In this document: in pieces, positions 49,610 to 53,647 of the stretch
How the letters are laid out: every line of letters starts with the position of its first letter
How positions within the stretch are numbered: position 1 is the first letter of the stretch
Assembly: GCF_000875775.1 (NCBI RefSeq)
Contig: NZ_CP010868.1
Coordinates: 744,001 to 808,000, forward strand
Length of the DNA stretch: 64,000 nucleotides
Direction: 5' to 3'
Origin: Nitrosopumilus piranensis
GTDB taxonomy: Archaea; Thermoproteota; Nitrososphaeria; Nitrososphaerales; Nitrosopumilaceae
The notes under the pieces: model-generated
What the model was told of the DNA's origin: nothing
What the model saw: the letters and a program-made list of their open reading frames with translations, nothing else
Database searches by the model: none
Made by a program: the position numbers and the translations under genes

Positions 49610-51100
49610 TTACGAATTATATCTTTGTATGGTTATGGGTTTTCTTTCTAATCTGCTGATAATTCCCTTTATTTGATTTATACTAAATGGCTTGTTAATA
49701 ACAATTGATGCCCCATATCTCTTTAGCATATCTTCCATACCTTTTGTAACATCTTCTGTTATCATGACAATTTTTGTTGTCGCATCTTTTTTTCTAATCT
49801 CTTTTAAGGCAATAATTCCATCTAATCTTTTTGTATGCCCATCAATGAATATGATGTCTGGATTGTATTTTCCCCTCATTTTAATGACATCGACTCCTTT
49901 GGAAAGAATTTTTATGCCTAACATTTCAAGTATTTTACAAAGTACTCTGACTACTAGATGATTATCACTAACAACTATTGCAGTCTTTGGCCTGCTATTT
50001 ACAAAATTAGGGATATTATTTAAAAACCTGTTTTTTTCTTTGCTGTACTGTTCTGCATGTTCTCTTTTCTGCATGTTTCCTATTATTTTCAGGATTTTTT
50101 TGAAATTAGATGTTTTGTGTCTTACAAACTTTGAATTCTTGTATTTGTTTTGATATGACTTGGCTGTTTGTGCATCTGACTCTGATTCTGCAAGCTTGTT
50201 TCTTAACATGAAAATACCTATTAGAGTTATTGAAACTGAAACCATATCCATTGATGTGATTTCTTCAGAAAGGAATATTCCTGCAAAGATAATTCCAAAC
50301 ACTGATGTTGTAGAATACAACAAAACACTTCTTACTGCACCAATTTTTTTCAAGCCTGCTAAAAATAACAATGTTGACATTCCAGTACCAAGTATCGCAA
50401 TTATCGCAATACTTGGAAGGTGTGATATTTCAAAGTCCATTGGTATCTGTAAAATAGCTATGAACAATAATGCTATACCCGCACATACAAATGATATGAT
50501 TTGCGTTACTCTTCTGGAATCATACTTGTCTCCAATATACTTACATAATGTAATATCAATTCCATACAAAAATCCTGAAATGATAATTAACAAGTCTCCT
50601 GTCATGATGTTGTGAATATTCATCCCATTTTCAACAATGTTGTTTAGAATGGGGATCACCATCATTCCGATAACGATCATGGAAAATGGAATGCATTCCT
50701 TTATGTTTAGCCTCTCTTTGAAAACGACCATTGCAATTATTAGGGAAAAAACTATCTCACTATTGCTAAAAATTGATGCGTTTACTGCTGTTGAGTTTTG
50801 CAATCCAAAAAAATACGTTGCCAACGCTGCAACTTCTGATAAACCAATAAGTCCCATGAATAGAATGTCTTTTCGTGAAAATTTGCTAACTGAATCTGTT
50901 TTTCTTGCTATGGGTGTAAAAAATGCCCCACATATCATGTATACAAGAAATGTCATTACTATTGGATTTATCCCAATTGAACTCTCTCCAATCTCTAACA
51001 TCGGTTTTGATACCACATGTACCAGAGATGATAAAGCTGCTGCAATAATGACTAAATAATATCCTAGATAATTCTTGTTTTTGACTAAACTACATCTCAA
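49610..51100 (-). CDS. DMT/EamA-type membrane transporter fused to a receiver (REC) domain
   Basis: 496 residues. Ten membrane segments in two EamA-like halves (about 8-155 and 165-300; SEIVFSLIIAMVVFKERL is a typical motif end) are followed by a linker rich in Lys and a cytoplasmic REC domain (about 371-486). In REC the phosphoacceptor is D420 (PDIIFIDGH), with T447 and K470 (INKPFS) conserved; the acidic pair is D379-N380, with the second residue replaced. A transporter under two-component control is implied. The upstream gene is a wHTH regulator. Confidence 0.8.
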   Translation of the reverse strand: MRCSLVKNKNYLGYYLVIIAAALSSLVHVVSKPMLEIGESSIGINPIVMTFLVYMICGAFFTPIARKTDSVSKFSRKDILFMGLIGLSEVAALATYFFGLQNSTAVNASIFSNSEIVFSLIIAMVVFKERLNIKECIPFSMIVIGMMVIPILNNIVENGMNIHNIMTGDLLIIISGFLYGIDITLCKYIGDKYDSRRVTQIISFVCAGIALLFIAILQIPMDFEISHLPSIAIIAILGTGMSTLLFLAGLKKIGAVRSVLLYSTTSVFGIIFAGIFLSEEITSMDMVSVSITLIGIFMLRNKLAESESDAQTAKSYQNKYKNSKFVRHKTSNFKKILKIIGNMQKREHAEQYSKEKNRFLNNIPNFVNSRPKTAIVVSDNHLVVRVLCKILEMLGIKILSKGVDVIKMRGKYNPDIIFIDGHTKRLDGIIALKEIRKKDATTKIVMITEDVTKGMEDMLKRYGASIVINKPFSINQIKGIISRLERKPITIQRYNS

Positions 51101-51159
51101 TTGTTTCCATTTATGGAAATGACACCATCATTTAATAATATGATCCTTGTATTTTGTTC

Positions 51160-51756
51160 CTAAAACCGTATGGCTTTGATGAATAGGCTTTTCTCAGAAT
51201 CCATCAACTGTAATTCTACACTCATTCTTTTGCCTTCTAAATTAATTCTTAGATTGCTGAACGCACATAGGTATTTGTTGATTTTTTTATTATCTCGTGA
51301 AATCTGTTCTGCTTTGTATAGTAACCCATTATCAATCAAATTGTTAATTTTTCTGTAACCTGATGTCTGTGATAGATTGCAATCCTCAATAATCTCTGAA
51401 ATTATTTTTGGGGTTTCTGCAACTGACTCTAGAATTGCTTTTTTCTCTAAATCCCCAAATGACTGTAAAATCATTTGAGACATTTTTTCATCACGTAAAA
51501 TGTACCACCCTTCTTTTGATTTTGACTTTGATTGAAAAATGTTTTCAAAGAATTTTCTCTCTAGACCATCTGCACCTTTTCCAAAAAACTCTCTTAACAC
51601 CAAATCTAGTTTATCAAATTCTTCCATTGCCTGTGTAAATGAAATTCCATATTTTTCAAATAACCTGTCTTCAATTTTTTTGACCGTATTTTGTCCAAGA
51701 TTTTTCCTGATAATTTCTTCTAATGATTTGGCAATAAGGTTGTCTAAACCTGGCAT
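51160..51756 (-). CDS. NitrOD5-like domain plus winged-helix regulator
   Basis: 198 residues. The N-terminal 85 residues (LGQNTVKKIEDRLFEKYGIS, VLREFFGKGADGLERKF) match the domain known in thaumarchaeal signalling proteins as NitrOD5, named here from memory. Residues 95-165 form a winged helix (SFGDLEKKAILESVAETPKI, NLSQTSGYRKINNLIDNGLL). It is upstream of the transporter-receiver gene on the same strand, so it may regulate it. Confidence 0.7.
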   Translation of the reverse strand: MPGLDNLIAKSLEEIIRKNLGQNTVKKIEDRLFEKYGISFTQAMEEFDKLDLVLREFFGKGADGLERKFFENIFQSKSKSKEGWYILRDEKMSQMILQSFGDLEKKAILESVAETPKIISEIIEDCNLSQTSGYRKINNLIDNGLLYKAEQISRDNKKINKYLCAFSNLRINLEGKRMSVELQLMDSEKSLFIKAIRF

Positions 51757-51843
51757 ACTAGTGTATAATCCTGATCATTTATTAATTTTCTCTGTGGAAA
51801 TGAGGGATATTTTTATTAAATACTATTCCCAAATTTGGTAATA

Positions 51844-52341
51844 ATGACAATTCAACTTTTTGATGAAAATAATATGCGTCAGCTACCTGATGAAGAAAGA
51901 TTTGAAATTTGTAATGATGTATTAAGAAATGAAACTGATGAATCAAAGAGATGGGATGCTGTATGGCTTGTAGGTGAATTGGCCGAAGATCAGGATGATA
52001 AAAATCTGTTACGAAATAGAGTAGCTGATCTTTTAGAGTGGGTCTTACGTAATGATACAAATGGTGTAGTAAAACATGAAGCAAGTTTTCAAATTGCTGC
52101 AAGAAACCTTAGACATAAAATACATGTTTTGACAGATATTGCACTTAATGATAAAAGTGTTCTTTCAAAACATGAAGCAATTGAAGCACTTGGGTTAATG
52201 AGGGCATTTGAGATCGAGGATGAAATTAAAAAAGCACTTGATGATCCAAGTATAGATGTGCGAGAAACTGCTGAGTTTGTTCTAAAGAGATTTGATCGTT
52301 TACGTAATAGTGGGGAGTATAAACCATCTGATATACTGTAG
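51844..52341 (+). CDS. HEAT-repeat protein
   Basis: 165 residues from ATG 51844. About four HEAT-like helical pairs are seen (SKRWDAVWLVGELAEDQDD, GVVKHEASFQIAARNL, SVLSKHEAIEALGLM, IDVRETAEFVLKRF), similar to DOHH or PBS-lyase repeats. No catalytic residues are evident. It is followed nine bases later by the YkgJ gene, probably in an operon. Confidence 0.75.
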   Translation: MTIQLFDENNMRQLPDEERFEICNDVLRNETDESKRWDAVWLVGELAEDQDDKNLLRNRVADLLEWVLRNDTNGVVKHEASFQIAARNLRHKIHVLTDIALNDKSVLSKHEAIEALGLMRAFEIEDEIKKALDDPSIDVRETAEFVLKRFDRLRNSGEYKPSDIL

Positions 52342-52350
52342 CGTTTGTTT

Positions 52351-52854
52351 ATGCAAGAAAATCTAAACTCATCACATTGGAAAGGATTATGTGAAAAGTG
52401 TGATCACAAATCATGTTGTAATGATTATGTCACCCCTTTTGTTACTGCCTTAGAATATGAACAATTAAGTAAATTGAGTAACAAAGACTTTGCAGATCCT
52501 GTATTGATTAATGGAATTAATGGTTATGCTTTAAAAAAGAAAAAAAACTCTGAAGAATGCATCTTTTGGGATCGAGAAAAAGGATGCACTGTTTATGAAA
52601 AACGACCATTTGATTGCAAAGTTTTTCCATTTGACATATACAAAATAGATGGAAAATATACTTGGGTAGTGTATTCATGTAATCCTGAATCTGATTGGAG
52701 TTGGTCCGAAGGCTTACTCCAAGTTTTGGAAAAAGATGCAATTACTATGGATCTCTTAGAACACATTGATGCTTTTTCAGATTTGGGTAGATTAGAATCT
52801 TCAGACAAGTCTTATGATTTTGTAATTCTCAGGGAAGTAATTTTGCCAAAATAA
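52351..52854 (+). CDS. YkgJ-family cysteine cluster protein (UPF0153-like)
   Basis: 167 residues from ATG 52351. The cysteine pattern CEKCDHKSCC...CIFWDREKGCTVYEKRPFDCKVFPF (C-rich, CxxC...CxxxRPxxCKxFPF) is diagnostic. The family probably binds zinc or an Fe-S cluster. Coupled to the HEAT gene upstream. Confidence 0.88.
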   Translation: MQENLNSSHWKGLCEKCDHKSCCNDYVTPFVTALEYEQLSKLSNKDFADPVLINGINGYALKKKKNSEECIFWDREKGCTVYEKRPFDCKVFPFDIYKIDGKYTWVVYSCNPESDWSWSEGLLQVLEKDAITMDLLEHIDAFSDLGRLESSDKSYDFVILREVILPK

Positions 52855-52891: not shown

Positions 52892-53647
52892 ATGGACACC
52901 GTCCCAGAAAAACTTTCAAATCCTATTAGTCTTAGAGCAATCATACTTATTCTAAGTATTGTACTTGGATTCCATTTTTTGGTAAATTTTATTGAAGATA
53001 CAGACTTGTTGGTTTATGGATTCTCTCTGATAATTCCTGGAAGTGTTTCTATTTTTAGTTTTATTGTTGCACGGAAGTATTCTGATTCCTTAGTCTTTTC
53101 CAGATCTTATTATTTTCTAGCATTTGGCTTTGCTAGTCTCTTTCTAGCTGAGTTAACTTACTTAATTTATGATCTATTTCTAGGAATTGATCCATATCCT
53201 TCAATTGCTGATGTCTTCTTTTTCATATTTTATCCCATGATTTCTTTATTCGTGTTCAAACACATACAGTTTTTCTCTTCCCCAACTAGTATTTCGGACA
53301 AAATCATTCTGGGAATTATTCCTGTGGCAATAACTACATTGTATCTCTCAATTACAATTTCTGAAGAATTTAATTTTGATTTTTTTTATGGAATCCTATT
53401 TGTTTCTGCCACTTCAATCTCTTTTGCCCTTTCTATTTATGCATTAAAAATTTTTCAGGGTAGCTTAGTGGGAACCTCTTGGATAATTATGGTTGCAGGC
53501 ATCTTAATTTTGGTAGGTGGAGATATTTGGTATTATTATATTGAATTGTTTGAAGAATACACATTAAGTCATACTGTAAATGTTTTTTGGTACTTGGGAT
53601 ATCTTGTGATTTTGTATTCTTTAATTAAACATAGATCATCACTTTGA
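52892..53647 (+). CDS. Integral membrane protein, sensor-like
   Basis: 251 residues with about eight spans. The motif YPSIADVFFFIFYPMISL is reminiscent of the membrane sensor regions found ahead of diguanylate cyclases and histidine kinases, but no catalytic domain follows. The gene stops before any kinase domain. Function unknown. Confidence 0.65.
   Translation: MDTVPEKLSNPISLRAIILILSIVLGFHFLVNFIEDTDLLVYGFSLIIPGSVSIFSFIVARKYSDSLVFSRSYYFLAFGFASLFLAELTYLIYDLFLGIDPYPSIADVFFFIFYPMISLFVFKHIQFFSSPTSISDKIILGIIPVAITTLYLSITISEEFNFDFFYGILFVSATSISFALSIYALKIFQGSLVGTSWIIMVAGILILVGGDIWYYYIELFEEYTLSHTVNVFWYLGYLVILYSLIKHRSSL

Follow-up and report, generated by a model that had tools for sequence, protein, structure and literature searches.

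Transporters fused to histidine kinases, of which CbrA is an example, carry a transporter and a two-component domain in one chain, and the topology of DMT transporters places the EamA C-terminus in the cytosol. Most stand-alone CheY-like receiver (REC) domains of Thaumarchaeota lack a conserved neighborhood according to a published census, and NitrOD5 (PF11537) has been described as a REC output domain in Nitrosopumilus (PMC5847659). The protein described here has two EamA repeats, as other EamA/DMT transporters (PF00892) do, and ten helices in a low-confidence model, but a REC domain is added at its C-terminus, while most orthologs in the class end at about 320–390 aa. It differs from CbrA-type proteins in that a DMT-type transporter is joined to a receiver rather than to a kinase. 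Orthologs of the receiver are encoded in relatives by separate genes beside the EamA gene and a winged-helix (wHTH) gene; unlike these stand-alone domains, the REC of the host is fused to a transporter, has Ser in place of the first acidic residue, and has lost its own promoter. In contrast to most receivers of the census, the REC of the EamA island does have a conserved neighborhood. The two kinds of domains that make up REC–NitrOD5 regulators of Nitrosopumilus are found here in neighboring genes, but a winged helix is attached to the NitrOD5-like part, the transporter bears the REC, and the similarity is below the Pfam cut-off. For most stand-alone receivers of ammonia-oxidizing archaea, no partner is known. 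One of them is tied to a transporter and a regulator, a concrete set of candidate partners, by the fusion with its fossil promoter and by a parallel fusion of EamA to a CxxCxxCC protein.

The EamA–REC reading frame and its origin

The window (the whole stretch of DNA analyzed, 64,000 nucleotides) comes from a marine ammonia-oxidizing archaeon, whose Nitrosopumilus-like genome (G000) consists of one contig of 1,713,078 bp. Positions 49610–51100 of the minus strand form a single ORF with a TTG start, coding for a 496-aa protein with a two-repeat EamA part and a C-terminal REC (Table 1). In a Pfam search with this protein, the two EamA repeats matched PF00892 with 121.8 bits, above the curated cut-off, and Response_reg (PF00072) matched residues 375–480 with 50.3 bits (cut-off 30.2). 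These matches and the uninterrupted frame of 496 codons bear out the preliminary description of the locus as an EamA-type transporter and a REC in one frame. The ten spans also described there are seen in a low-confidence model; a search of the PDB with an EamA profile gave no match. The model of the full-length fusion was poor (pLDDT 55, and under 50 in the linker region 307–374), with domain contacts not readable from it.

Table 1. Features of the EamA–REC locus and its surroundings (positions in the window)
Feature	Position	Strand	Remarks
Fossil REC promoter/operator TTTTTAAATAATATCCCTAATTTTGTAAATA, now coding	49996..50026	-	Aligned to REC promoters of G046, G025, and G108
REC domain	49646..49987	-	PF00072; (βα)5 model; S378, D379, N380, D420, T448, K470
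Linker, residues 310–371 (62 codons)	49988..50173	-	Ancestral cytosolic tail and translated ex-intergenic DNA
EamA/DMT transporter part, residues 1–309	50174..51100	-	PF00892 ×2; orthologs in relatives 47–76% identical
Palindrome TTTCCATAAATGGAAA, just upstream of EamA start	51104..51119	-	Candidate wHTH operator
NitrOD5-like and winged-helix regulator, 198 aa	51160..51756	-	Orthologs 42–77% identical, beside EamA in relatives
Same palindrome TTCCCAAATTTGGTAA, start of divergent HEAT gene	51826..51841	+	Kept at HEAT starts in most relatives
HEAT-repeat protein	51853..52341	+	PF13646; adjoins wHTH in most loci
CxxCxxCC (YkgJ-like) putative metal-binding protein	52345..52854	+	PF03692, 32.3 bits
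Multi-span membrane protein, 251 aa, YPSIAD motif	52892..53647	+	Conserved in most loci

In six relatives (G030, G146, G068, G098, G184, and G025), wHTH, EamA, and REC are three separate genes on the same strand, with 22–126 bp between EamA and REC. In the first four, homology spans both the EamA and REC genes but is interrupted by stop codons. The EamA stop, the intergenic DNA, and the REC start of relatives fall within the stretch that matches the host linker, and both codons are absent from the host linker. The linker is free of stops in the fusion frame only, and shuffling of its bases left the frame open in 0.6% of cases (P = 0.006). No other EamA–REC fusion was found in 95 genomes of the genus, a 101-genome sample of the family, or a 200-genome sample of the class, and literature searches found no described case. 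By these comparisons, an in-frame, lineage-specific fusion of two adjacent genes of a conserved island is shown; the lineage specificity that had been proposed holds, the fusion being seen in one of the genomes searched.

Upstream of REC in three relatives (G046, G025, and G108), a TTAAATA-like element is followed by the palindrome TTTCCA-N4-TGGAAA and then by the start codon. A segment of the host linker, TTTTTAAATAATATCCCTAATTTTGTAAATA, occupies the same place and, as judged against random stretches, is alignable to the REC promoters of G046, G025, and G108 (p ≤ 0.004, 0.006, and 0.001, respectively); its palindrome is decayed and the start codon is missing. The fusion is caught at a stage when the old promoter is still legible in the linker.

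A frameshift artifact joining two genes was considered and rejected, since one frame runs throughout and the REC start codon is lost. We also regard it as highly improbable that a sequencing or assembly error erased a stop between two separate genes: the presence of the fusion in one genome only speaks for such an error, but the genome is a single contig, both parts share one frame across the 62 linker codons, and, independently, the REC has also lost its start codon and operator. One error might delete a stop, but not the REC start and operator as well. Just as little weight can be given to a fusion frame that yields an extra, separate REC product by translation from Met343. This is the sole in-frame start codon within the linker, but it precedes the relic TATA-like element, and inspection by eye revealed no promoter-like element upstream of it.

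The conserved island and its palindrome

The fusion is embedded in an island of six genes: HEAT, CxxCxxCC, a 251-aa membrane protein, the NitrOD5-like wHTH, EamA, and REC. The first five co-occur across the family, and REC is present in a subset. A transport/signaling pair had been proposed for the locus; the association of wHTH, EamA, and REC is indeed kept in relatives, but the unit is larger than a pair, comprising six genes with a shared palindrome. The 251-aa protein belongs to no family in Pfam or NCBIfam, and we take it to resemble 7TM sensor modules. Tandem, separate EamA and REC genes occur in two loci of another, distant genus (L129 and L130, in G071 and G083), where the genes for the 251-aa protein, HEAT, EamA, and REC are consecutive on the same strand.

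The wHTH gene lies directly upstream of the fusion ORF on the same strand, as had been described, at a distance of 59 bp. Its product gave weak Pfam matches to HTH_27 and HTH_45 (E about 0.013), so that the winged helix remains below the cut-off; the best members among its orthologs reached E values of 0.0004–0.01 to wHTH families. The NitrOD5 assignment fared less well: neither the window protein nor its orthologs matched PF11537 over the curated cut-off in Pfam. REC–NitrOD5 fusions occur in relatives, and a profile of the wHTH orthologs showed a weak but consistent likeness to these proteins (hhalign E 0.0055, 59 columns).

The palindrome TTTCCATAAATGGAAA is the only exact occurrence of TTTCCAN4TGGAAA in the genome, and an equivalent palindrome is centered at −11 in most EamA orthologs. 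In most species of Nitrosopumilaceae, the more general form TTYCCA-N4-TGGRAA overlaps the start regions of EamA, REC, and HEAT, and its half-sites change together across species. Single palindromes mostly have p values of about 0.04–0.09 and are not significant alone, and the argument rests on their conserved position. The palindrome is likely the operator of the wHTH protein.

In five genomes of three genera (G021, G038, G099, G225, and G233; L124–L128), EamA is fused in frame to CxxCxxCC (PF03692), whose homolog in the window is a separate gene. This is a second, independent fusion of the same transporter to another island gene. The fusion of two different neighbors to the same end of EamA speaks for the island products coming together at the cytosolic side of the transporter. 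The two unrelated mergers suggest that the six-gene conserved cluster acts as one unit.

The receiver domain and its two-component background

The REC is modeled as a (βα)5 fold (pLDDT 82.9), and its best Foldseek match is DivK (1m5t, TM 0.82). The phospho-acceptor Asp420 is kept, as are Thr448 and Lys470; Asp and Lys are as described previously, and the Thr is residue 448 rather than 447. Alignment to archaeal CheY and DivK shows Ser378/Asp379 in place of the usual D/E-D acidic pair. Asn380, earlier taken to be the lost acidic residue, lies one position beyond the pair. The acidic residue that is lost is the one at Ser378. Five of the 17 residues invariant across nine stand-alone RECs are altered in the fused domain (D→S378, loss of a G from the β2–α2 loop, A→V405, V→G421, and M→T423), and all but V405 map to the surroundings of the active site or to the β2–α2 loop; the loop after Asp420 has lost both its V and its M. 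With D420, T448, K470, and the second acidic residue still in place, some phosphorylation may be possible. The REC of the nearest relative (G046) has D-N at the acidic pair, so weakening of the receiver may predate the fusion.

The fused REC has the longest branch among the RECs (0.83, as against 0.32 in its sister, 2.6 times as long). With our own branch codon model, ω = 1 was rejected for it (2ΔlnL 17.1). Part of this branch predates the fusion, and synonymous sites approach saturation; applied to the wHTH, the test lacked power.

PF00072 matches only three times in the host genome (the fused REC, a truncated fragment, and a regulator adjoining a kinase-like gene), as against 10–34 times in relatives having this neighborhood. 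The count ranges from 0 to 42 across the genus, and depletion by itself is not unique to this genome. Four HATPase_c matches fall in three frames: one probably encodes topoisomerase VI, and the other two resemble kinases. Of these two candidates, one is a 597-aa kinase-like protein that matches HisKA weakly, and the other already has a regulator of its own as partner. No histidine kinase adjoins the EamA–REC locus among the ORFs of the window, and a dedicated kinase for the fused REC is not evident.

Possible roles of the tethered receiver

Because its phosphorylation site is degraded and its host genome has kept hardly any two-component systems, the REC is most likely a tethered protein-interaction module. 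The overall reading we favor, with about half of our confidence, is that it works as such a module largely independently of phosphorylation. With the EamA stop, the REC start, and the REC operator gone, ex-intergenic DNA turned into a linker, and the product would be one membrane protein with a C-terminal REC in the cytosol. The EamA promoter, controlled by the wHTH regulator, would then drive both the EamA and REC parts at a 1:1 ratio. With its fold kept and its phosphorylation site degraded, the REC would be under weak phospho-control or none.

The main rival, which we consider unlikely, is that the REC lost its use when the genome lost its two-component systems and, once the EamA stop had gone, stayed on as a harmless tail. 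Such decay would fit the longest REC branch, the depletion of two-component proteins, and the presence of a truncated REC at another place in the genome. It is harder to reconcile with a frame that stays open through the linker (P = 0.006) and the REC, with retention of the core and the D/T/K residues, and with the rejection of ω = 1. Phosphorylation control of transport, as the preliminary description had it, appears doubtful, because the acidic pair and the D420 loop are altered and two candidate kinases are left in the genome. A kinase would have to phosphorylate D420, and the REC would switch EamA activity. The intact receiver fold, the presence of D420, D379, T448, and K470, and the 597-aa kinase-like protein are in its favor. 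Ser at the first acidic position, the loss of V and M after D420, and the shortened β2–α2 loop are not, and of the kinases, the other one has its own regulator and none adjoins the locus.

As an interaction module, the favored reading, the REC would connect the transporter with other island products, and EamA would be a transporter with an attached signaling or recruitment domain, in parallel to the EamA–CxxCxxCC fusions of other genera. Partner interactions of the REC are candidates only. The NitrOD5-like wHTH is the best of these, as NitrOD5 is known in the genus to serve as an output domain of RECs, and its pairing with a receiver suggests a split response regulator. It is conceivable, if improbable, that a membrane-tethered regulator of this kind, formed by the gene fusion, operates here, the transporter's pseudo-receiver capturing or releasing its own wHTH and so reporting the transport state to the island promoters.

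Elsewhere in the genome, a REC fragment without β1 and without a start codon is found at L087:1813-2070 (G000:C1:891312-891569). The fragment is apparently a pseudogene, which agrees with the loss of two-component systems.
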